Shown here: one piece after another, positions 1 through 8,273 of the stretch | Layout of the letters: each line of letters starts with the position of its first letter | Numbering within the stretch: position 1 is the first letter of the stretch | DNA from: Clostridia bacterium | GTDB lineage: Bacteria > Bacillota_A > Clostridia > Oscillospirales > Butyricicoccaceae | Length of the DNA: 8,273 bases | Assembly (NCBI GenBank): GCA_017421885.1 | Contig: JAFOHJ010000288.1 | Span: 1 to 8,273, forward strand | Direction of reading: 5' to 3' | Program-made: the position numbers and the translations under genes | The notes under the pieces: model-generated | What the model was told of the DNA's origin: nothing | Seen by the model: the letters and a program-made list of their open reading frames with translations, nothing else | The model's database searches: none

Positions 1-16
1 CGATGATTTTTCCCAT
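1..16 (-). CDS. dnaK: DnaK (Hsp70 chaperone), first five codons only
   Basis: The minus strand starts with ATG at 16-14 and reads M-G-K-I-I before running off the window edge. This matches the usual start of Firmicute DnaK (MGKIIGIDLGTTN), where the strand leads into the phosphate-binding loop of the ATPase domain. A strong Shine-Dalgarno, AGGAGG (minus strand, 31-26), lies 9 nt upstream. Position after grpE in a CIRCE-controlled hrcA-grpE-dnaK operon fixes the identity, since five residues alone would not. DnaK is the ATP-driven cytosolic folding chaperone whose nucleotide exchange is driven by GrpE. The 65 nt gap to grpE (17-81) shows no terminator, so co-transcription is expected. Confidence 0.93.
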
Positions 17-81
17 AATAAATTTCCTCCTAATGCTGCGGACTGTGCCGCGATATATCTGAAATAATTTTTAATGCGAAC

Positions 82-648
82 TTAGTTTGCTACCTGCACC
101 ATGCTGTAGCGGATGACCCGATCGCCCATGCGGTAGCCTTTCTGAAAGACCTGCGCAATGGTGTTGGGGTCCATTTCCTCGTTTTCCACATGCATCACCG
201 CATTGTGGAGATTGGGATCAAAGGGGGTTCCCGCCTCGGCGGGGATCTCCTCGACACCGGCTGCGGCCAGCGCTTCTTGAAAGGAGTTGATGATCATATC
301 CACGCCTTTTTTGTACTCGGGGTCAGAGCACTCGAAACCGGCTGCCCGTTCCATGCTGTCCAGCACGGGGATGAATTTGGCCACTGCATCGGCTTTTGCC
401 TCGGGGTAGATGGCCTCTTTTTCCTTGACGGAACGTTTGCGGAAGTTATCGTACTCGGCCAGGGTGCGCAAAAGCTTATCGTTCAGCTCAGCGATGGTCT
501 GCTGTGCCTCCTCCAGCTTTTGCTCCATGGGATCTTTCTCTTCTGCCGCCTCCACTGCTTCCTCTTGTGCAGTTTCTTCGGGAGAAGGGATTTCGTTTTT
601 CTCTTTCTCGCTCAAATCGGGGTCCCTCTTTTCTTTTTTGCTTCTCAT
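82..648 (-). CDS. grpE: GrpE nucleotide exchange factor for DnaK
   Basis: A 188-residue protein, of normal length for GrpE. The first 40 or so residues are highly charged and low in complexity (Lys/Glu rich), as in most GrpE N-termini. Next comes a long helix with coiled-coil character (about residues 40-90, containing LRTLAEYDNFRKR), then the C-terminal beta domain with the family signature around FDPNLHNAVMHVE and ending GYRMGDRVIRYSMVQVAN. GrpE acts as a cytosolic dimer that opens the DnaK nucleotide pocket to release ADP. The ATG abuts the hrcA stop directly (TAA then ATG), and its Shine-Dalgarno-like AGGAAG sits inside the last hrcA codons, so translation is probably coupled. The reading frame is intact and regulation is by the upstream CIRCE operator. 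Confidence 0.97.
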   Translation of the reverse strand: MRSKKEKRDPDLSEKEKNEIPSPEETAQEEAVEAAEEKDPMEQKLEEAQQTIAELNDKLLRTLAEYDNFRKRSVKEKEAIYPEAKADAVAKFIPVLDSMERAAGFECSDPEYKKGVDMIINSFQEALAAAGVEEIPAEAGTPFDPNLHNAVMHVENEEMDPNTIAQVFQKGYRMGDRVIRYSMVQVAN

Positions 649-1685
649 TTATTCTTCCTGCAGCTTCATGGTGTCGGACAAAAGGCTGCCCAACGTTCCT
701 GCAAAGTACTGCAGATGGGGGATCATTTTTGCATAATCCATTCGAACCGGGCCGATGACGCCGATGACGCCGGTGTTATCCTGCCCCATGTTGTATCGGG
801 CGACCAGCACCGCCGAGTTTTCCAGCTGCGGCAGGTGGTTTTCCTTGCCGATCTTTACATACAGCGCCTGATCTTCCGGTCCCTTCAGTGCCTCCTGCAA
901 GGCGGCCCGATCTTCCAGCAGGGTCAAAAGCTCGTAGGCATTGGCTCTGAAGTCCGGGTGTCCCAGCAGATTGGTGCTGCCCTGGGTGTAAAACTGTCCG
1001 GCACGGATCTGATGGCAGATCTCGAACACGCCGGCCAGCAAGGGGGTAAACACGCGCGAATACTCGCCCAGCGCCACCGCTACCGAGTTCAGATAGCCCA
1101 CCGAGATATCCTCGATGGATCTGCCTACGAAACGGTCGTTGGCGAACTTGTTGAAAAAGCTCAGGATCTCTTTGGAGCAGATCATATCCAGCCGGTACGC
1201 CTTGTTTTTGATGACGCCGTTGGAAGCCAGCACCACGATCATCACCACGTGGGGGCTGATGGGCAACAGCTCGATTTTGCGGACGGTCACCTGTCGGGGG
1301 GGACGGGTGGAAGACACCACCACGCAGCCGGTGTATCGGGCAAGGGTCTCTGCCGCATCGGCCAAAAGGCGGTCGGGGTCGGGGTTATGGATGTTGAACA
1401 GGGCGTCGATGCCGTCCTTTCCGCGTCGGTAAGCATCTGGGGGGCCAAAAGCTCATCCAGGTAGATGCGGAAAGCCAGGTGGGAAGGGATGCGTCCGGCA
1501 GAGGTGTGGGGCTGTTCCAGCAGACCCAGACCAAACAGATGGCTCATCTCGTTGCGGCAGGTTGCGGAGGATACCTGGGTATCCATCATCTGCGCCACCC
1601 GCTTGGAGCCAACCGGCTCGCCGGTTCGGATATATTCCCCGATGATGGCGGAGAGGATCTTCATTTTTCGGCGATCCAACTGCAT
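649..1685 (-). pseudogene. hrcA: HrcA heat-inducible transcription repressor, frameshifted
   Basis: HrcA represses class I heat-shock operons by binding CIRCE. The N-terminal part starts at 1685 with MQLDRRKMKILSAII and carries the winged-helix domain, including GEPVGSKRVA and the family hallmark PHTSAGRIPS. After about residue 89 this frame becomes nonsense and stops at 1287, giving a 132-residue product. The rest of HrcA continues in another minus frame from about 1417 to 649 (DALFNIHN, then the GAF-like and C-terminal dimerisation regions). The break maps to the TTT run at 1418-1420 on the plus strand. Adding one base (AAA to AAAA on the coding strand) restores one reading frame of 345 residues, the normal HrcA length. 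An earlier ATG at 1748 lies inside the promoter and is not the start. Either a true loss-of-function allele or a one-base sequencing error in a homopolymer. Confidence 0.95.
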
Positions 1686-1717
1686 ATCCGACCCTTCTTT
1701 CTGTTCGTTTTTGAGGT

Positions 1718-1744
1718 TTAGCACTCTTTGTATATGAGTGCTAA
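1718..1744. promoter_or_regulatory. CIRCE operator (HrcA binding site)
   Basis: A perfect inverted repeat TTAGCACTC-N9-GAGTGCTAA, identical to the CIRCE consensus. It lies 33 bp upstream of the hrcA start and just downstream of the -10 element, so it covers the start of transcription and the 5' leader. HrcA bound here blocks transcription of hrcA-grpE-dnaK, and heat inactivation of HrcA relieves the block. Autoregulation of hrcA follows from the layout. Confidence 0.98.
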
Positions 1745-1748
1745 CCAT

Positions 1749-1777
1749 AATTTATCACTTATCCTGCCCAAAGTCAA
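1749..1777 (-). promoter_or_regulatory. Predicted sigma-A promoter of hrcA-grpE-dnaK
   Basis: On the minus strand a -35 TTGACT (1777-1772) is followed after 17 bp by -10 TAAATT (1754-1749), preceded by TG one base away (extended -10). The expected start of transcription falls at the edge of CIRCE, the classical arrangement for HrcA repression. The -35 matches consensus at five of six positions. Confidence 0.8.
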
Positions 1778-1830
1778 GACTCTTCATAAATTATTTACTT
1801 TTTGCCCGCCAAAATGCCAAAAGACGCAGA

Positions 1831-1861
1831 AAAGCCCTGCGGAACGGTTCCGCAGGGCTTT
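1831..1861 (-). terminator. Intrinsic terminator after the spoIID fragment
   Basis: A perfect inverted repeat, AAAGCCCTGCGG and its complement around a loop, up to 15 bp per arm. On the minus strand it lies 6 nt after the stop of the SpoIID fragment and is followed by a T-rich tail (GCTTTTCTGCGTCTTTT). It insulates the upstream gene from the hrcA promoter. The plus-strand side is also fairly T-rich after a short gap, so some bidirectional function is possible. Confidence 0.8.
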
Positions 1862-1867
1862 GTGGAT

Positions 1868-1990
1868 TTATTTTACGGGGGTGCCGGGGTAATAATGCGC
1901 CAAAATCTCGATGTAATCGTAACCCATCTTGCTCATTTCGATGGCGCCCCACTGGCTCATGCCAACGCCGTGGCCGTAGCCGCGGCTGCC
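1868..1990 (-). CDS. SpoIID/LytB-domain protein, C-terminal 40 codons only
   Basis: The minus strand encodes 40 residues before a TAA at 1870-1868. They begin GSRGYGHGVGMSQWGA and end YYPGTPVK, the typical C-terminus of the SpoIID/LytB family (G-x-GHGVGMSQ-G-A, later HYYPGT). SpoIID is a lytic transglycosylase that degrades peptidoglycan glycan strands during engulfment of the forespore; LytB-type relatives act in other cell-wall remodelling. Everything upstream of about 1988 on this strand is replaced by glmS in a different frame, so the catalytic N-terminal part is missing here. With only the tail visible I cannot tell SpoIID itself from a paralogue, so no gene symbol is given. Its own terminator follows immediately. 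Confidence 0.85.
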   Translation of the reverse strand, partial: GSRGYGHGVGMSQWGAIEMSKMGYDYIEILAHYYPGTPVK

Positions 1991-2775
1991 TTAGGCTGCT
2001 CCATGATCTCCTTGATCATGAAGTGGTCGTATCCTTCCTTCTGTGCGCCCTGGATGTCCCAGTTAACTGTCTGGACTTCCTTCTCAATGGCATTACCTTC
2101 GCTGTCGAATACCTCGACGCTGTCAGGCTTGACTCTGACGATCTCGTTGTCGCCGACAACGATAAAATCCTTGGTGATGCTCATGATAGCGGGGATATCG
2201 GAGGCGATCATATTCTCGCCCTTGCCGAGGCCAACAATGAGGGGATTATCCTGCCTTGTGCAGATCATCTCGTCCTTATTGTCGCTGCAGGTGACCGCGA
2301 TGGCATAGCTGCCGCGCAGGTGCTTGCAGGTCTCCATCATAGCCTCAAGGCCGTTGCCCTTATAGAACTTCGAGAACAGATGTGCAACTACCTCCGAGTC
2401 GGTGTCGCTCTTGAACTCTACGCCCTCTGCAACAAGAGCTGTCTTGAGCTCGAGATAGTTCTCGATGATGCCGTTATGTACCAGCGCGATCGTGCCTTCC
2501 ATGTTCTCATGAGGATGAGAATTGCGATCGGAAGGCGCACCGTGTGTGGCCCATCTTGTGTGGCCGATGCCGCATGTTGCATCAAAGCTGCCCAGCTCGT
2601 TAATCTTGTCTTCCAGGACCTTGATGCGGCCCTTGGTCTTGACGGTTCTGATGCCGTCCTTGGTCTGCAGGGTAACGCCTGCCGAGTCATAACCTCTGTA
2701 TTCGAGGGTGGTAAGGCCCTCAATGAGAACGGGAACTGCCGCACGGGCACCCGTAAATCCTACTATTCCGCACAT
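1957..2775 (-). CDS. glmS: GlmS, glutamine-fructose-6-phosphate aminotransferase, 3' truncated
   Basis: GlmS makes glucosamine-6-phosphate from fructose-6-phosphate and glutamine, the first committed step to UDP-GlcNAc. The start is the ATG at 2775 giving MCGIVGFTG, where Cys2 becomes the N-terminal nucleophile of the class II glutaminase. Family motifs LEYRGYDSAG, GIGHTRWATHG and HNGIIENY follow. AAGGAG lies 11 nt upstream; an in-frame extension upstream to 2802 would hide the Cys and is rejected. Only about 263 native residues remain (to EQPKA at about 1987) of roughly 600. The linker then meets the breakpoint, about ten unrelated residues follow, and the frame stops at 1957. Both sugar-isomerase (SIS) domains are missing, so this copy as drawn could at best release ammonia from glutamine. 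An essential gene truncated like this points to an artificial join. A glmS ribozyme precedes it. Confidence 0.95.
   Translation of the reverse strand: MCGIVGFTGARAAVPVLIEGLTTLEYRGYDSAGVTLQTKDGIRTVKTKGRIKVLEDKINELGSFDATCGIGHTRWATHGAPSDRNSHPHENMEGTIALVHNGIIENYLELKTALVAEGVEFKSDTDSEVVAHLFSKFYKGNGLEAMMETCKHLRGSYAIAVTCSDNKDEMICTRQDNPLIVGLGKGENMIASDIPAIMSITKDFIVVGDNEIVRVKPDSVEVFDSEGNAIEKEVQTVNWDIQGAQKEGYDHFMIKEIMEQPKAAAATATALA
1985..1990. other. Breakpoint: glmS joined out of frame to the spoIID-like fragment
   Basis: Reading the minus strand leftwards, codons for GlmS residues up to EQPKA end at about 1987. SpoIID-family codons (G-S-R-G-Y-G) begin at 1990 in a different frame. The few shared bases (GGCA, 1990-1987) mean the exact join cannot be placed better than a few bases. 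Both genes are cut in their interior, the mark of a chimeric join or an illegitimate recombination. Confidence 0.85.
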
Positions 2776-2819
2776 ATATATGTTATCTCCTTGAAAAATC
2801 AAAAATAAATAAAAGTTTT

Positions 2820-2958
2820 CCGCCCATCTTCCTTTTGTCGGTCCGATCGCTCGGAGGTTTTGTAAGAAGGCTTGTGCCGCGGCGGCGCGGCAGGAGGTAT
2901 CCGCCGAAGACTTCGATATTCCTCCCCCTCGTCAACTGCCATAAGCAGTTCCGGCGCT
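2820..2958 (-). ncRNA. glmS ribozyme (glucosamine-6-phosphate riboswitch)
   Basis: The minus-strand leader of glmS matches the glmS ribozyme. It has the cleavage motif A-GCGCC (cut between A at 2958 and G at 2957). A P2 hairpin, AACTGC/GCAGTT, lies at 2950-2934 and is followed by the conserved GACGAGG. The core ATCGAAGTCTTCGGCGG comes next. A 7-bp P3 hairpin TGCCGCG/CGCGGCA sits at 2892-2875, and a P4.1 hairpin TCCGA-GCGA-TCGGA with a GNRA loop at 2855-2842. A P4-like pairing (CTTCTT with AGGAAG) and a terminal GGGCGG end near 2820. In this family glucosamine-6-phosphate acts as a cofactor for self-cleavage, and the cleaved mRNA is degraded, giving feedback on GlmS. All conserved segments I can check are present. 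The 3' end is about 45 nt before the glmS ATG. Confidence 0.96.
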
Positions 2959-2960
2959 TA

Positions 2961-2989
2961 ATAATATCACATTTTCCTTTATCTGTCAT
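2961..2989 (-). promoter_or_regulatory. Predicted glmS promoter
   Basis: On the minus strand, -35 ATGACA (2989-2984, five of six consensus bases), a 17-bp spacer, and -10 TATTAT (2966-2961) preceded by TGA (extended -10). The -10 ends only 3 nt before the ribozyme cleavage site, which is unusually close; see findings. The region is AT-rich, so chance resemblance is possible. Confidence 0.55.
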
Positions 2990-3006
2990 CCCCTTTTCTT
3001 TACAGT

Positions 3007-3040
3007 CTTTCCTTCCGCCTGTTATGCGGCGGAAGGAAAG
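3007..3040 (-). terminator. Strong hairpin between glmM and the glmS ribozyme, possible (attenuating) terminator
   Basis: A perfect 13-bp stem (CTTTCCTTCCGCC with its complement) closes an 8-nt loop, 17 bp after the glmM stop. On neither strand is it followed by a clear T-tract (the minus side continues ACTGTAAAG). It could be a weak terminator, an mRNA-stabilising or processing hairpin, or a partial barrier separating ruv-glmM from glmS. Confidence 0.5.
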
Positions 3041-3056
3041 AGCTGTTTCTGAAAAA

Positions 3057-4430
3057 TCAATAATCAGAAGCCTCGGCCATCAGTTTTTTAACAACATTTT
3101 TAACCGTTTCAACAGCATAGGCCGACATTTCTTCGACCTTCTTCTGATTCTTGCCCTCTACCATTACTCTGACAAGAGCCTCGGTGCCCGAAGGACGGAT
3201 ATTGATGCGTCCGTCACCCTCAAAGGCATCGGTGATCTCCTGAGCCAGTGCATCGATCTCGGGCAGGCCTGCGATCTGCTTTTTAAAGGCATTGGGAACT
3301 TCGACATTGACCATGATCTGAGGATAGTGGAAGATCTCATTCGCAAGCTGCGAAGCCTTAAGGCCGCTCTCGCTGAGCATGAGCATGAACTTAAGTGCTG
3401 TCAGCTGTCCGTCGCCTGTGGTGGCATAGTCGGACAGGATAACATGGCCCGACTGCTCGCCGCCGATATTGCAGCCTGTGCGGCGCATCTCCTCGAGAAC
3501 ATGACGGTCGCCTACCTTTACGGCGGTAACATCGACATCATATTTCTTAAGGAAAGCCGAAAGGCCCATATTGGACATGATGGTAGCAACAACGCCGCGC
3601 TGAAGCTGTCCCTTTTCCTGCATATTGGCAGCGAGCAGAGCGATAATATCGTCGCCGTCGATCAGTTTTCCGTTTTCATCGCAGAGAAGGCAGCGGTCGG
3701 CATCGCCGTCAAAGGCAACACCGAGGTCAAAGCCTTCGTTCTTCACGCGCTCACACAGCATCTCCATGTGTGTCGAGCCGCATTTATTATTGATATTCAC
3801 TCCATCGGGCGAGCATGCCATAAAGCTGCACTTGGCTCCCAGATGGGGGAAGATCATCTTTGCTGTGTAGGACGATGCGCCGTTTGCGCAGTCGATAAGC
3901 ACCTTGAGTCCCTCGGCCTTTCCGTCGGCACAAGAGAGAATATACTTGCTGTAGCGGTCGTTGCCCTCGGCCTTGAGGTCGATGACTCTGCCCAGCTTGG
4001 CGCCGCTCTTAAGAGCTTCCTGAGGCAGCTCATCCATAAGCGACTCGATTTCTGCCTCCTGATCATCGTCCAGCTTATATCCGCTGCCGCCGAAGATCTT
4101 AATGCCGTTATGCTCGTAGGGGTTGTGCGATGCCGAAATAACAACACCGGCATCCATCTCCTCCATGCGTGTGAGATACGCTACCGAAGGTGTGGGCATA
4201 ACTCCCAGCATATAAACATCGCCACCGCAAGCTGTGAAGCCGGCAGCCAGAGCGCACTCGAGCATATCGCCCGAAACTCGTGTATCCTTGCCGATGCAGA
4301 CGCGGGGCTTTCTGTCCCAGCGCTTTGTAAGACTATAAGCCAGGGCAGCGCCTATATCATAGGCCATCTTGGGAGTCAGCTCAACATTTGCAACTCCTCT
4401 GACGCCGTCAGTACCAAAATATTTTCCCAT
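3057..4430 (-). CDS. glmM: GlmM, phosphoglucosamine mutase
   Basis: GlmM isomerises glucosamine-6-phosphate to glucosamine-1-phosphate for UDP-GlcNAc, hence peptidoglycan synthesis. The 457-residue product (family about 445-460) starts MGKYFGTDGVRG. It carries the phosphoserine loop VVISASHNPYEHNG with catalytic Ser101, the magnesium site DGDADRC, the sugar-specificity region containing GEQSGH, and the C-terminal phosphate-binding RPSGTEALVRV. The ATG at 4430 is chosen because GGAGGAG lies just upstream and the family begins here; an in-frame TTG at 4445 would precede the Shine-Dalgarno. The gene follows ruvB after only 15 nt with no promoter, so it is co-transcribed with the ruv genes. The frame is intact. 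Next comes glmS, whose product is the GlmM substrate. Confidence 0.97.
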   Translation of the reverse strand: MGKYFGTDGVRGVANVELTPKMAYDIGAALAYSLTKRWDRKPRVCIGKDTRVSGDMLECALAAGFTACGGDVYMLGVMPTPSVAYLTRMEEMDAGVVISASHNPYEHNGIKIFGGSGYKLDDDQEAEIESLMDELPQEALKSGAKLGRVIDLKAEGNDRYSKYILSCADGKAEGLKVLIDCANGASSYTAKMIFPHLGAKCSFMACSPDGVNINNKCGSTHMEMLCERVKNEGFDLGVAFDGDADRCLLCDENGKLIDGDDIIALLAANMQEKGQLQRGVVATIMSNMGLSAFLKKYDVDVTAVKVGDRHVLEEMRRTGCNIGGEQSGHVILSDYATTGDGQLTALKFMLMLSESGLKASQLANEIFHYPQIMVNVEVPNAFKKQIAGLPEIDALAQEITDAFEGDGRINIRPSGTEALVRVMVEGKNQKKVEEMSAYAVETVKNVVKKLMAEASDY

Positions 4431-4445
4431 GGTGATCTCCTCCAA

Positions 4446-5483
4446 TCAAAGTTCGAGCTGACCCGTAAAGGGTATGCCCAGATGCTGGTATGCCTTTACA
4501 GTCGCACATCTGCCTCGAGGCGTGCGGCTGAGGAAGCCCAGCTGCATAAGGTAGGGTTCGTATACATCTTCGAGGGTGACCGACTCCTCGCCGATAGTCG
4601 CGGCAAGAGTATCCAGGCCTACGGGGCCTCCCGCGAAGTTATAAATAATGCTTTCAAGCATGCGTCTGTCGATCATATCAAGGCCGAGAGGGTCGATATC
4701 CAGAGCAGAAAGGGCGCGCTGGGCAACCTCCTTGGTTATAATGCCATCGCCCTTGATCTGAGCAAAATCGCGCACACGCTTGATAAGGCGGTTGGCGATT
4801 CGGGGCGTTCCGCGCGACCTCATGGCGATCTCAAGGGCGCCTTCGTCCTCTATCTCGATCCCGAGGATATTTGCCGAACGCGAAACGATTTTAGCCAGCT
4901 CATGCTTGTTATAAAGCTCAAGACGGGAGATAACGCCGAAGCGGTCGCGCAGAGGGCTGGAGATCTGTCCCGCCCTTGTAGTAGCACCTACAAGGGTAAA
5001 TCTTGGCAGATCAAGCCTTACCGAGCGTGCTGCAGGACCCTTGCCGATGATTATATCGAGAGCAAAGTCCTCCATAGCGGGGTAAAGGATCTCTTCTACG
5101 CTGCGGTTCAGGCGATGGATCTCGTCTATGAACAGAACGTCATTCTTATTCAGATTTGTGAGAAGGGCGGCAAGATCGCCTGCCTTCTCGATTGCAGGAC
5201 CCGAAGTGATCCTGATATTTACACCCATCTCGGAGGCAATAATGCCTGCCAGAGTGGTCTTACCGAGGCCGGGAGGACCATAAAGCAGGACATGGTCCAG
5301 CTGATCGCCGCGCTGTTTTGCGGCGCTGATAAAAATCGACAGGTTTTCTTTTGCCTTTTCCTGGCCAATATATTCATCCATCGATTTGGGCCTGAGCGTT
5401 ACCTCGGCATCATCCTCGCTGGTGAATGTGCTGGTGACTATGCGCTCGTCCTGCTGAGCGTCATTATTAAATTCGATTGCCAT
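4446..5483 (-). CDS. ruvB: RuvB, Holliday junction branch-migration ATPase
   Basis: RuvB is the hexameric AAA+ motor that, with RuvA, drives branch migration of Holliday junctions. The 345 residues show all hallmarks in order: [12 protein letters not shown] near residue 30, Walker A GPPGLGKT (69-76), Walker B DEIH, sensor 1 GATTRAG, the PLRDRFG segment with the arginine finger, and a C-terminal winged-helix domain with [10 protein letters not shown] and FLSRTPRGR. Length is typical. The start at 5483 has AGGAG about 10 nt upstream, overlapping the ruvA stop (TAGGAG), and the gap to ruvA is 15 nt, so the two are translated from one transcript. An unusually acidic N-terminal stretch of about 28 residues precedes the AAA+ core, as in many Firmicutes. 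Confidence 0.98.
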
Positions 5484-5498
5484 ACTGCTTTATCACTC

Positions 5499-6101
5499 CT
5501 AAAACAGTTTCTTGAGAGCAGCTCTGACGATCTCGTCGACCGACATTGCCGAAAGATCGAGGCCCTTGATTGCCGCCATAGCTTCGGCACGGGAATATCC
5601 AAGGCTTACAAGGGCGAGAATAGCATCATCGGCTGCCGAACCGCTCTGAACAGCCGCCATGTCGGCCATTGTAACACCGGCTGCTGCGCTTTCAAGCTGT
5701 CCCTTGCTCATCTTATCCTTGAGCTCAAGAATGATCCTCTGAGCCAGCTTTTTGCCGACACCGGGTGCTGCCGAGAGAGCCTTCTGATCGTCGCTGATAA
5801 CAGCCAAAGCCAGCTTAGAGGGTGTTGTAACGCCCAGAATGGCCAGCGCAGCCTTAGGGCCGACACCTGAGATGTTTATCAACATCTTGAAGCAGTCGAG
5901 CTCTTCCCTTGTGATAAAGCCATACAGGTCAAATATATCCTCTCTGACGTGAAGATATGTGTAAAAAGTTGCCTCTTTTCCTACCTCGGCTTGAGCCGAA
6001 GATGTGAGCGAGGTCATAATGCCATAACCGACTCCGCCGGCATCAATGACTGCAAGGCCGGGTTCGCTTACGGCTACCTTGCCCTTTATATAGTAAAACA
6101 T
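5499..6101 (-). CDS. ruvA: RuvA, Holliday junction DNA-binding subunit
   Basis: RuvA tetramers bind four-way junctions and load RuvB. The 200-residue protein starts MFYYIKGKV (domain I, OB fold, containing HVREDIFDLYGF). It continues with the two helix-hairpin-helix motifs of domain II (INISGVGPKAALAIL and SAAPGVGKKLAQRI). It ends with the flexible linker and domain III (DDAILALVSLGYSRAEAMAAI), which contacts RuvB. The ATG at 6101 has GGAGG 8 nt upstream; a TTG at 6116 overlaps that Shine-Dalgarno and is rejected. It heads a ruvA-ruvB-glmM transcription unit from its own predicted promoter, with ruvC upstream after a 171 bp spacer. Confidence 0.97.
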   Translation of the reverse strand: MFYYIKGKVAVSEPGLAVIDAGGVGYGIMTSLTSSAQAEVGKEATFYTYLHVREDIFDLYGFITREELDCFKMLINISGVGPKAALAILGVTTPSKLALAVISDDQKALSAAPGVGKKLAQRIILELKDKMSKGQLESAAAGVTMADMAAVQSGSAADDAILALVSLGYSRAEAMAAIKGLDLSAMSVDEIVRAALKKLF

Positions 6102-6187
6102 CGCTTTTTCCTCCAAACGATGATCTTTTATCCAAATTTGTATAAGGCAGAAGGCTCAGCACATCTGAGCATATTCCACCATATTAA

Positions 6188-6216
6188 ATTATATCATATG
6201 GAGCCGTCCGAAACAA
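6188..6216 (-). promoter_or_regulatory. Predicted ruvA-ruvB-glmM promoter
   Basis: On the minus strand, -35 TTGTTT (6216-6211), 17-bp spacer, perfect -10 TATAAT (6193-6188) with an upstream TGA (extended -10). It lies in the 171 bp between ruvC and ruvA and leaves a leader of about 80 nt. That leader contains a small 6-bp hairpin, GCTCAG/CTGAGC (6154-6170), of unknown meaning. No convincing LexA (SOS) box was seen. Confidence 0.75.
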
Positions 6217-6272
6217 TAACCCTTGTTATGTAAACATGAACTGTTTTGCTCCATTTTACCCTTTATTTACAA

Positions 6273-6758
6273 TTATTTCGACAACGCCGAGTTTGAAGTA
6301 TGTCCGTGGCAGATGGCAATGGCCAGTGCATCGGCGGCATCGTCGGGACGAGGCACGGATTTAAGGCCCAGAATGACCCTCGTCATCTCCATTACCTGCT
6401 TTTTTTCGGCTCTGCCATATCCTACTACCGCCTGCTTTACCTGCAGCGGAGTGTATTCGGCAATGGGTATGTTATGTTCGGCTATGGCCAGCAGTATTAC
6501 TCCGCGTGCATGGCCGACCTGTATTGCTGTTTTGACATTCGTATTGAAAAAAAGTTCCTCTACCGCTATGGCATCGGGCTTGAATTTTTCAATAAGCACT
6601 CCCATATCGTGATATATCTCGGCAAGGCGCAGATGAAAGGGCATTCCCGCCGGAGTTGTTATCGCACCATGGCTTATATATATGTTCTTACCCCTATCAT
6701 GCTCGACGACACCATAACCAACGATGCCGTAACCGGGGTCAATTCCAAGTATCCTCAT
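6273..6758 (-). CDS. ruvC: RuvC, Holliday junction resolvase
   Basis: RuvC is the dimeric RNase H-fold endonuclease that cuts Holliday junctions symmetrically. The 161-residue protein begins [16 protein letters not shown] and carries the four acidic catalytic positions of the family: Asp7, Glu67 (in AVEELFF), and Asp140 and Asp143 in the [13 protein letters not shown] segment. Length is typical. The start at 6758 has an AAGGCGG ribosome site about 10 nt upstream. It is the first gene of the minus-strand ruvC-ruvA-ruvB-glmM-glmS run. The 171 bp to ruvA contains a separate promoter but no clear terminator, so partial read-through is likely. Confidence 0.97.
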
Positions 6759-6783
6759 TATAGCTTACCGCCTTTCTGATTAG

Positions 6784-6812
6784 ATAATATCACTTTTTGG
6801 GGGCTTTTTACA
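6784..6812 (-). promoter_or_regulatory. Predicted ruvC promoter
   Basis: On the minus strand, -35 TGTAAA (6812-6807), 17-bp spacer, -10 TATTAT (6789-6784), again with TGA directly before the -10. The ten bases GTGATATTAT are identical to those at the predicted glmS promoter. The -35 overlaps the -35 region of the divergent plus-strand promoter. Confidence 0.55.
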
Positions 6813-6833
6813 GAGCTGCTTTCATGTTATACT
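6805..6833 (+). promoter_or_regulatory. Predicted promoter of the HAD-VOC gene pair
   Basis: Extended -10 TG-T-TATACT (TATACT at 6828-6833) with only a weak -35 (TTTTTA, 6805-6810) at 17 bp. It lies about 40 bp upstream of the HAD-family start and is back to back with the ruvC promoter. Confidence 0.55.
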
Positions 6834-6874
6834 GATAAAAAGATATTATTACCCCGTGAAAGGAGCACCTTTTT

Positions 6875-7525
6875 ATGGATCCCAAATATATCCTCTTCGA
6901 TCTTGACGGCACGCTGACCGATCCCAAGGAAGGTATCACAAAATCGGTGGCCTATGCCCTCGCTCAGTACGGCATCATCGAAGATCCCGATAACCTGACC
7001 CGCTTTATCGGCCCGCCCCTGCATATCGCCATGCACAACTGGTATGGCTTCGACGAAGAAAAGGCCTTTGAGGCTGTCGGACACTACAGAGTGTACTTCT
7101 CCCAAAAGGGCATATTCGAAAACGCCGTTTTCGACGGTGTTCCCGAAATGCTTGAAAAACTCAAATCAAAGGGCAAGGTCATCTCGCTATGCACATCCAA
7201 ACCCGAGATCTATGCCCGCCAGATCCTCGAGCATTTTGACCTCATGAAATATTTTGATCATGTCTGCGGCGCTACGATGGACGGAAAACGCTCGCTCAAG
7301 ACCGATGTAGTCACCTATGCCGTCGAGACCTGCGGCATCACCGATAAAAGCGAGGCCGTAATGGTTGGCGACCGCCATCATGATATCGAGGGCGGCAAGA
7401 CAAACGGCCTGCCTACCGTGGGTGTTCTCTTCGGCTATGGCAGCCGCGAGGAGCTCACCGAGGCCGGCGCCGATGTGATCGCCGAAACCATACCCGAACT
7501 TTACGATATTCTGAAAGGAGAATAA
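6875..7525 (+). CDS. HAD-family hydrolase, phosphoglycolate phosphatase-like
   Basis: A 216-residue haloacid dehalogenase superfamily phosphatase, subfamily I with an alpha-helical cap. Motif I is FDLDGT with nucleophile Asp9 and acid Asp11; the cap lies at about residues 17-85; motif II is the Thr107-Ser108 pair in LCTSKP; motif III is Lys142; motif IV is VGDRHHD with Asp166 and Asp170. These enzymes hydrolyse small phosphate esters in the cytosol with magnesium. The substrate cannot be read from sequence (phosphoglycolate, nucleotides or sugar phosphates are all possible), so no symbol is given. The ATG has AAAGGAG 9 nt upstream. The next gene starts 4 nt after the stop, so the two form one operon, divergent from ruvC. 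Confidence 0.93.
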   Translation: MDPKYILFDLDGTLTDPKEGITKSVAYALAQYGIIEDPDNLTRFIGPPLHIAMHNWYGFDEEKAFEAVGHYRVYFSQKGIFENAVFDGVPEMLEKLKSKGKVISLCTSKPEIYARQILEHFDLMKYFDHVCGATMDGKRSLKTDVVTYAVETCGITDKSEAVMVGDRHHDIEGGKTNGLPTVGVLFGYGSREELTEAGADVIAETIPELYDILKGE

Positions 7526-7529
7526 TGCT

Positions 7530-7895
7530 ATGAAGCCCGAATCTCTCGTTATTTTCTTCCCCTGCAAGGACATCAAGGAGACCATCGCCTATTTTAACGG
7601 TGTTCTCGGCCTGCCCATTTACATAGATCTGGGCAGCACAGTGTGGTTCGACTGCGGCTATGGCTATCTTGCCTTCGTCTATTATGGACCCGACCGCCCT
7701 CTTGCCACAGGCCAGTGCATTTCCTTCAATCTGCCCTCCATCGAAGATGTAGACAGGAGATATGAAGAGCTCAAGGCTCTGCCGGTCATCGGTCTCAAGG
7801 GAGAGCCTCAGCATCATCCCCGCTTCCCGGTCTACTCCTTCTTCTTCTCCGATCCCAACGGTTATACGCTGGAGTATCAGAAGACCACCGACTGA
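7530..7895 (+). CDS. VOC-family (glyoxalase/dioxygenase fold) protein
   Basis: A 121-residue single-domain protein of the vicinal oxygen chelate superfamily. Two beta-alpha-beta-beta-beta repeats are recognisable. The first contains DIKETIAYFNGVLGLP; the second contains VDRRYEELKALPV and ends SFFFSDPNGYTLEYQ, where Glu115 sits at the usual metal-ligand position. A clear first-repeat His/Glu ligand is not obvious at the N-terminal strand (SLVIFF), so metal binding may be altered. Members include glyoxalases, fosfomycin and bleomycin resistance proteins and many of unknown role; I cannot choose among them. AAAGGAG lies inside the 3' end of the HAD gene, 9 nt before the ATG. It is the last gene of this two-gene operon before a strong terminator. 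Confidence 0.88.
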   Translation: MKPESLVIFFPCKDIKETIAYFNGVLGLPIYIDLGSTVWFDCGYGYLAFVYYGPDRPLATGQCISFNLPSIEDVDRRYEELKALPVIGLKGEPQHHPRFPVYSFFFSDPNGYTLEYQKTTD

Positions 7896-7905
7896 TATAC
7901 ACACC

Positions 7906-7935
7906 ACAAAGCTCCCGAATAAACGGGAGCTTTGT
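7906..7935. terminator. Intrinsic terminator between convergent genes
   Basis: A perfect 12-bp stem ACAAAGCTCCCG/CGGGAGCTTTGT with the loop AATAAA, followed on the plus strand by TTCATTTA. It lies 10 bp after the VOC gene stop and 5 bp before the stop of the convergent zinc-ribbon gene, so it can serve both strands. Confidence 0.88.
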
Positions 7936-7940
7936 TTCAT

Positions 7941-8150
7941 TTATAACCTTGTATTTCCACATTTCGCACAATAATATTCTTTACCGGACAATCGCCTATA
8001 AAGATTAATTCTCTCTCCACATTCCGGACATTTCAGAGGACAAATGCTGCTTATAATCAAATGTGGCCATATAGGTGCAAAACCAAGCCTGAAAAACAAT
8101 ACCAAAACAATGACTAAAATACAATATGCCATAGCCAAACTACTGTAAAG
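7941..8150 (-). CDS. Small membrane protein with C-terminal zinc ribbon, start missing
   Basis: I do not recognise a named family. The minus strand encodes at least one hydrophobic membrane segment (around AYCILVIVLVLFF), a second shorter hydrophobic stretch (PHLIISSI), then a C-terminal zinc ribbon with C-x2-C (CPEC) and, 16 residues later, C-x2-C (CAKC), ending NTRL. An ATG at 8132 would give 63 residues but has no Shine-Dalgarno. The frame stays open up to 8189, but that part lies in the neighbouring metallophosphoesterase fragment. The simplest reading is that the true N-terminus was lost at the join near 8147. The gene is visibly more AT-rich than the rest of piece B, so it may be accessory or transferred. 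Confidence 0.6.
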   Translation of the reverse strand, partial: LYSSLAMAYCILVIVLVLFFRLGFAPIWPHLIISSICPLKCPECGERINLYRRLSGKEYYCAKCGNTRL

Positions 8151-8153
8151 GGC
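8140..8153. other. Probable second breakpoint: zinc-ribbon gene / metallophosphoesterase fragment
   Basis: To the left is an AT-rich minus-strand gene without a ribosome site; to the right is plus-strand code for the middle of a metallophosphoesterase. The metallophosphoesterase frame is closed by a TAA at 8115-8117 and has no start codon between there and 8151. Both genes are therefore incomplete where they meet. Confidence 0.7.
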
Positions 8154-8273
8154 GATCTGTCCTGGGCGCTGGATCTGGAAGGAGCCCAACCTGATTTTGC
8201 CTGGATCGACCGGATTCCCGGACGTAAGATCATCTTAAAGGGTAATCATGATTACTGGTGGAGTACAGCATCC
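8151..8273 (+). CDS. Metallophosphoesterase, internal fragment
   Basis: 41 codons open to the window end, beginning GDLSWALDLEGA and continuing IPGRKIILKGNHDYWWST. This is the pattern of calcineurin-like metallophosphoesterases common in Clostridia, where the GD aspartate and the GNHD motif bind the two catalytic metals. The N-terminal part with the first metal motif (D-x-H) is absent, because an in-frame stop lies at 8115 and no start codon follows it. In this family the residue before GD is usually Pro, Ala or Gly; here it would be Lys, which suggests the join lies just before 8151. Substrate unknown. The C-terminal part lies beyond the window. Confidence 0.85.

Follow-up and report, generated by a model that had tools for sequence, protein, structure and literature searches.

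Interspecies chimeric contigs have been described in which two genomes are joined abruptly inside genes (PMC3100316), and conserved sequence can drive such errors. Chimeras are also produced by MDA: in one single-cell MDA study, more than 70% of the junctions had 2-21 complementary bases, only ~28-35% did so when the joined segments lay >10 kb apart and were mostly intermolecular, and 85% of the chimeras in the single-cell MDA study were within-genome inversions (PMC1855051). At the level of the gene, the reference is the ordinary glmS (glutamine-fructose-6-phosphate transaminase) with its ribozyme, where a functional product combines a glutaminase domain with two SIS isomerase domains.

The window, which is the whole stretch of 8,273 nt that was analysed, resembles each of these in part. 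It is almost certainly a chimeric contig in which DNA of two species, judged from the sequence, has been joined at ~1988, one related to the metagenome-assembled Oscillospiraceae genome RGIG2146 (G001) and the other to the genome G453. As in the described interspecies contigs, the genomes meet abruptly inside genes and each half is uninterrupted elsewhere, but no common repeat was found at the break in the window (PMC3100316). The join with few or no common bases is shared with MDA chimeras, which differ in being mostly inversions within one genome, while the parents here are different species (PMC1855051). The contig most likely came from a gut metagenome. The features are as follows.

1..1987, minus strand: left fragment of the putative parent A, an Oscillospiraceae close to MAG RGIG2146 (85% nt identity to L073/L001; HrcA 92% identical to that of G001)
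82..648, minus strand: grpE (PF01025, E 2.8e-47)
649..1685, minus strand: hrcA with a frameshift at ~1410-1440 (HrcA models are matched by two pieces that lie in separate frames)
1868..1990, minus strand: C-terminal 40 residues and stop of a SpoIID/LytB gene (TIGR02669, E 1.1e-17; about one codon at its start falls within the join zone)
1986..1990, no strand: chimeric breakpoint (base 1988 is the last of the left alignment and the first of the right one; swap in 20-nt identity)
1988..7900, no strand: right fragment of the putative parent B, close to G453 (93.1% nt identity to L071, 93.8% to L072; L084 collinear)
1990..2775, minus strand: 5' part of glmS, 262 codons, glutaminase half only (NF001484 positions 1-269 of 601; 99% identical to G453)
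2816..2969, minus strand: complete glmS ribozyme (RF00234, 83.1 bits, model 1-167)
3057..4430, minus strand: glmM (PGM_PMM I-IV)
4446..5483, minus strand: ruvB (family-model matches)
5499..6101, minus strand: ruvA (family-model match; RuvA 98% identical to G453)
6273..6758, minus strand: ruvC (family-model matches)
7901..8147, no strand: AT-rich DNA containing a small ORF that resembles a zinc ribbon (GC 0.355 over 7920-8150)
8148..8273, plus strand: metallophosphoesterase-like fragment (83% identical to G454; the DNA match begins at 8150)

The break was located by nucleotide alignment to one close relative on each side. The left relative L073 matched the window through base 1988 and the right relative L071 from base 1988. 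Ungapped identity per 20 nt, in blocks starting at 1928, 1948, 1968, 1988, 2008 and 2028, was 20, 19, 18, 6, 5 and 4 for L073 and 5, 8, 7, 19, 20 and 18 for L071. All eight of the retrieved right-side stretches that hold glmS began their alignment to the window at 1978-1988, and the sequence across the join was continuous, without Ns. By these relatives a single base is common to both sides, and at most ~4 would be should the true parents diverge from these relatives; the left parent is represented by an 85% relative, from which its bases at the join were deduced. An earlier note on this DNA had claimed that glmS and a SpoIID-like gene are fused out of frame and share only GGCA. Reading frames, family models and the alignments of the relatives all agreed with such a fusion at 1986-1990; for the overlap, the relatives give one base rather than four, and the upper limit of ~4 would include GGCA. 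Of 7997 proteins of comparable length that were scored, the best 120 included none that matched the fused protein at more than 61% identity. A scan of a viral collection for the exact 30-base join gave 0 matches, a weak test as neither parent is a virus.

On the minus strand, glmS starts at 2775 with MCGIVGFTG and encodes 262 normal residues up to EQPK, the last codon of which occupies 1992-1990. The following codon (A, 1989-1987) lies inside the join and is succeeded by the nonsense residues AAATATALA and a stop at 1959-1957, in keeping with the reported end of GlmS after EQPKA, apart from the final A falling in the join zone. Pfam detected glutaminase domains only in the window protein, and the intact GlmS of L071 (609 aa) contains a glutaminase domain and two SIS stretches; the isomerase half has thus been lost, as the note had said. 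The 5' part, the start codon and the ribozyme are like those of ordinary glmS, and the window copy differs in being without the SIS half, owing to the join. The ribozyme, described before as intact, was complete against its model and was also detected in L071 and L084. In all 13 genomes checked, glmS was an open frame of 610-657 aa, stop to stop.

In a second frame, different from that of glmS, the minus strand from 1990 to 1868 encodes GSRGYGHGVGMSQWGAIEMSKMGYDYIEILAHYYPGTPVK, followed by a stop. This tail corresponds to positions 232-268 of 270 of TIGR02669 (SpoIID_LytB) and was 87% identical in L001 and 67-77% in L002-L005. The frame extends upstream of the break in all five of these left relatives: in L001 it covers 336 aa, where the contig ends, and in L002-L005 a single open frame, 1125-1146 aa from stop to stop, has the SpoIID-like part at its C-terminus. 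The SpoIID-like protein is truncated, as had been claimed, but because it belongs to this long frame in four relatives the loss exceeds a SpoIID catalytic part, to which the claim had confined it.

The full-length loci (L002:6026-9430, L003:2915-6331, L004:3542-6919 and L005:1855-5295) adjoin hrcA in all four cases. The long frame has a CinA-like N-terminus (MoCF_biosynth and CinA), followed by a hydrophobic stretch, a sortase, a Ser-rich linker and the SpoIID/LytB-like C-terminus. These domains were called by Pfam on L002 and L005; the SpoIID part was not called by Pfam and is assigned through the TIGR02669 match of the window tail. At 23 more distant hrcA loci (L006-L028), several of them on short stretches, no gene like this frame was found. 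From its predicted domains, the CinA-sortase-SpoIID fusion looks unusual.

The left fragment comprises the start of dnaK, seen via alignment to L001, grpE, the frameshifted hrcA and the end of the SpoIID/LytB gene. A profile search with HrcA relatives in the species-genome collection returned 28 loci, the best of which was L001 of the goat-colon MAG Oscillospiraceae bacterium RGIG2146, at 92% identity. Window 1-1988 aligned to L001/L073 with 85% nucleotide identity over 2001 columns, ending at 1988, and to L002-L005 with 70-72%, ending at 1981. In the nearest relatives hrcA encodes 345 aa in a single frame; the frameshift in the window copy is either a sequencing error or a real lesion.

The right fragment carries two small genes besides glmS, glmM and ruvBAC. 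The best match for RuvA among 391 genomes from the same class as G001 was 56% identical (G123), and a search of 87 genomes of the family of G123 found G453 at 98%; 250 genomes of the family of G040 gave none at E 1e-70. Window 1988-3780 aligned to contig C340 of G453 (L071) with 93.1% nucleotide identity over 1794 columns, and window 3457-7900 to contig C306 (L072) with 93.8% over 4444 columns. In L084, another relative, window 1988-7904 was collinear on one contig. The G453 contigs terminate inside glmM, L071 at its start and L072 at its end, and overlap over window 3457-3780. The G453 assembly therefore splits glmM over two contigs, and L084 has the same order on a single contig.

Markers on the two sides point to conflicting nearest relatives. 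Across 13 genomes, in all of which hrcA was an open frame of 351-378 aa, the window HrcA was 92% identical to that of G001 and 74-80% to those of G002-G005, as against 22-29% to those of G453 and its kin (25% for G453). The window GlmS was 99% identical to that of G453, 60-77% to those of seven kin of G453, and 48-49% to those of G001-G005 (49% for G001). The listing of the G453 family, with 87 genomes, contains none of G001-G005, which places the parents in different families; by these comparisons they are members of different families of one class. The proposal that the two sides have different origins is borne out, the left grouping with RGIG2146 and its kin and the right with G453 in another family.

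Composition differed between the two sides. When the two left pieces (grpE and the 3' part of hrcA) were compared with seven genes on the right, the difference in codon usage had a chi-square of 194 (38 df). By this measure glmS is like the other right genes (47 on 39 df) and unlike the left genes (106 on 35 df). Two genes were not clearly placed, namely ruvC (90 against its right-side neighbours, 94 against the left genes) and a HAD hydrolase (73 and 76, respectively); despite this weak placement the DNA of both aligns to G453. A comparison of k-mer composition across the join, which the note had suggested, was made with a 4-mer model, trained on DNA from elsewhere in G001 and G453, for which the sign was correct in 40 of 41 and 44 of 45 held-out blocks. 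The log-odds were positive (left-like) in all four blocks of 1-2000 and negative in the 13 later blocks. The left blocks scored +6.6, +13.4, +41.7 and +17.3, three of the four lying under the held-out left mean of 38.7. The left training set included glmS/ruv stretches of G001 and the right set the hrcA stretch of G453, and these distant homologues from the opposite side act against the observed separation. The last 126 bases alone scored +50.5, unlike the right parent.

Where the window has 7901-8147, five of seven right-side stretches (G453 and six kin, leaving out L089, whose alignment ended earlier) have a convergent peptidase-like gene, which we take to be of the M20 type. The 66 residues encoded at 7941-8141 had no hit when 87 genomes from the family of the right parent were searched at E 1e-4, and the ORF scored 22 bits against Zn_Ribbon_TF, below the cut-off. 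The stretch may be an ordinary strain difference. The fragment at 8148-8273 starts abruptly and presumably resembles a metallophosphoesterase; 0 families matched among the family models scanned. It was 83% identical in G454, 58% and 56% in G453 and 58% in G001, and the best value in 297 genomes of the family of G001 was 73%. Since its identity to G454 contrasts with 56-58% to the nearest genomes of either half, the fragment probably represents a further source, with a second chimeric join near 8148. It may instead be a second gene copy missing from the draft of G453, because G454 belongs to the right-side family.

For the main join, bases 1 to ~1988 derive from a species of Oscillospiraceae close to MAG RGIG2146, whereas the source of bases ~1988-7900 is a different species, belonging to another family and close to G453. 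The pieces were joined at random points inside genes that are unrelated to each other, with a few common bases at most. The join would have arisen either in the molecule or read itself (by ligation, template switching, MDA or a long-read chimera) or by blunt joining of contigs or scaffolds. The reading of this region as an assembly or amplification chimera, advanced in the earlier note, is supported by the alignments of the relatives and by the genes being uninterrupted there.

A molecule that was chimeric before sequencing, through MDA template switching or library ligation, or a chimeric long read is in our estimate the probable subtype. The minimal overlap at the break is consistent with it, and a second probable join within 8.3 kb, together with the hrcA frameshift, would suit amplified or noisy material; on the other hand, in assembled sequence alone such a product is inseparable from blunt joining of contigs or scaffolds. 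Repeat-mediated misassembly, in which the assembly graph linked the genomes through a common sequence, appears unlikely. When one relative per parent (L073 and L071) was compared over the sequence within 300 nt of the break, the longest exact word in common was 9 bases and did not lie at the break itself, so that no repeat able to mislead an assembler was found. Assembly graphs normally require a longer common word than this. What speaks for such a misassembly is that interspecies chimeric contigs were noticeable even in simple simulated metagenomes (PMC3100316). As no common repeat was found at the break and the 8.3 kb probably hold more than one join, a graph error driven by a repeat would be less likely than chimerism of the molecule or read, or than blunt joining of contigs or scaffolds.

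A 14-nt imperfect inverted repeat has one arm (1981-1994) across the break and its partner at 7435-7448 (93% complementary). We attribute it to chance, because arms of 14 nt occur in seven more of the 25 pairs shown and the partner arm lies away from the break of the right parent.

That a living cell acquired the join, by true rearrangement or by horizontal transfer, with a foreign glmS-glmM-ruv block set beside the dnaK operon and both glmS and the SpoIID gene cut, is extremely improbable. The continuous join without Ns and the intact ribozyme, glmM and ruvBAC would fit such an event, but the block would import a truncated glmS of another family, disrupt the SpoIID frame kept in five of five relatives and retain foreign codon usage. 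No mobile-element gene was found among the window proteins scanned, the fusion is absent from the best 120 scored proteins mentioned above, and from 8148 there is probably another piece of foreign DNA. We rejected this explanation on the grounds that the cut genes are uninterrupted in the relatives and the sides come from different families. There is correspondingly hardly any probability that a gut bacterium near RGIG2146 carries the transferred block beside its own dnaK operon, with a ribozyme-controlled truncated GlmS acting as a stand-alone glutaminase domain. A chance origin of the join is ruled out, since kilobase alignments of the two sides to two genomes end on the same base.

With a chimeric contig as the preferred reading, the nearness of dnaK, grpE and hrcA to glmS, glmM and ruv is, on the relationships of the two sides, an artefact; the note's advice to distrust the proximity of the dnaK operon to glmM/ruv proved sound, the sides being from different families. 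No inference on gene order, operon structure or taxonomy is valid across 1988, and the right end is also suspect. The truncated glmS and SpoIID should be entered neither as pseudogenes nor as a fusion protein.
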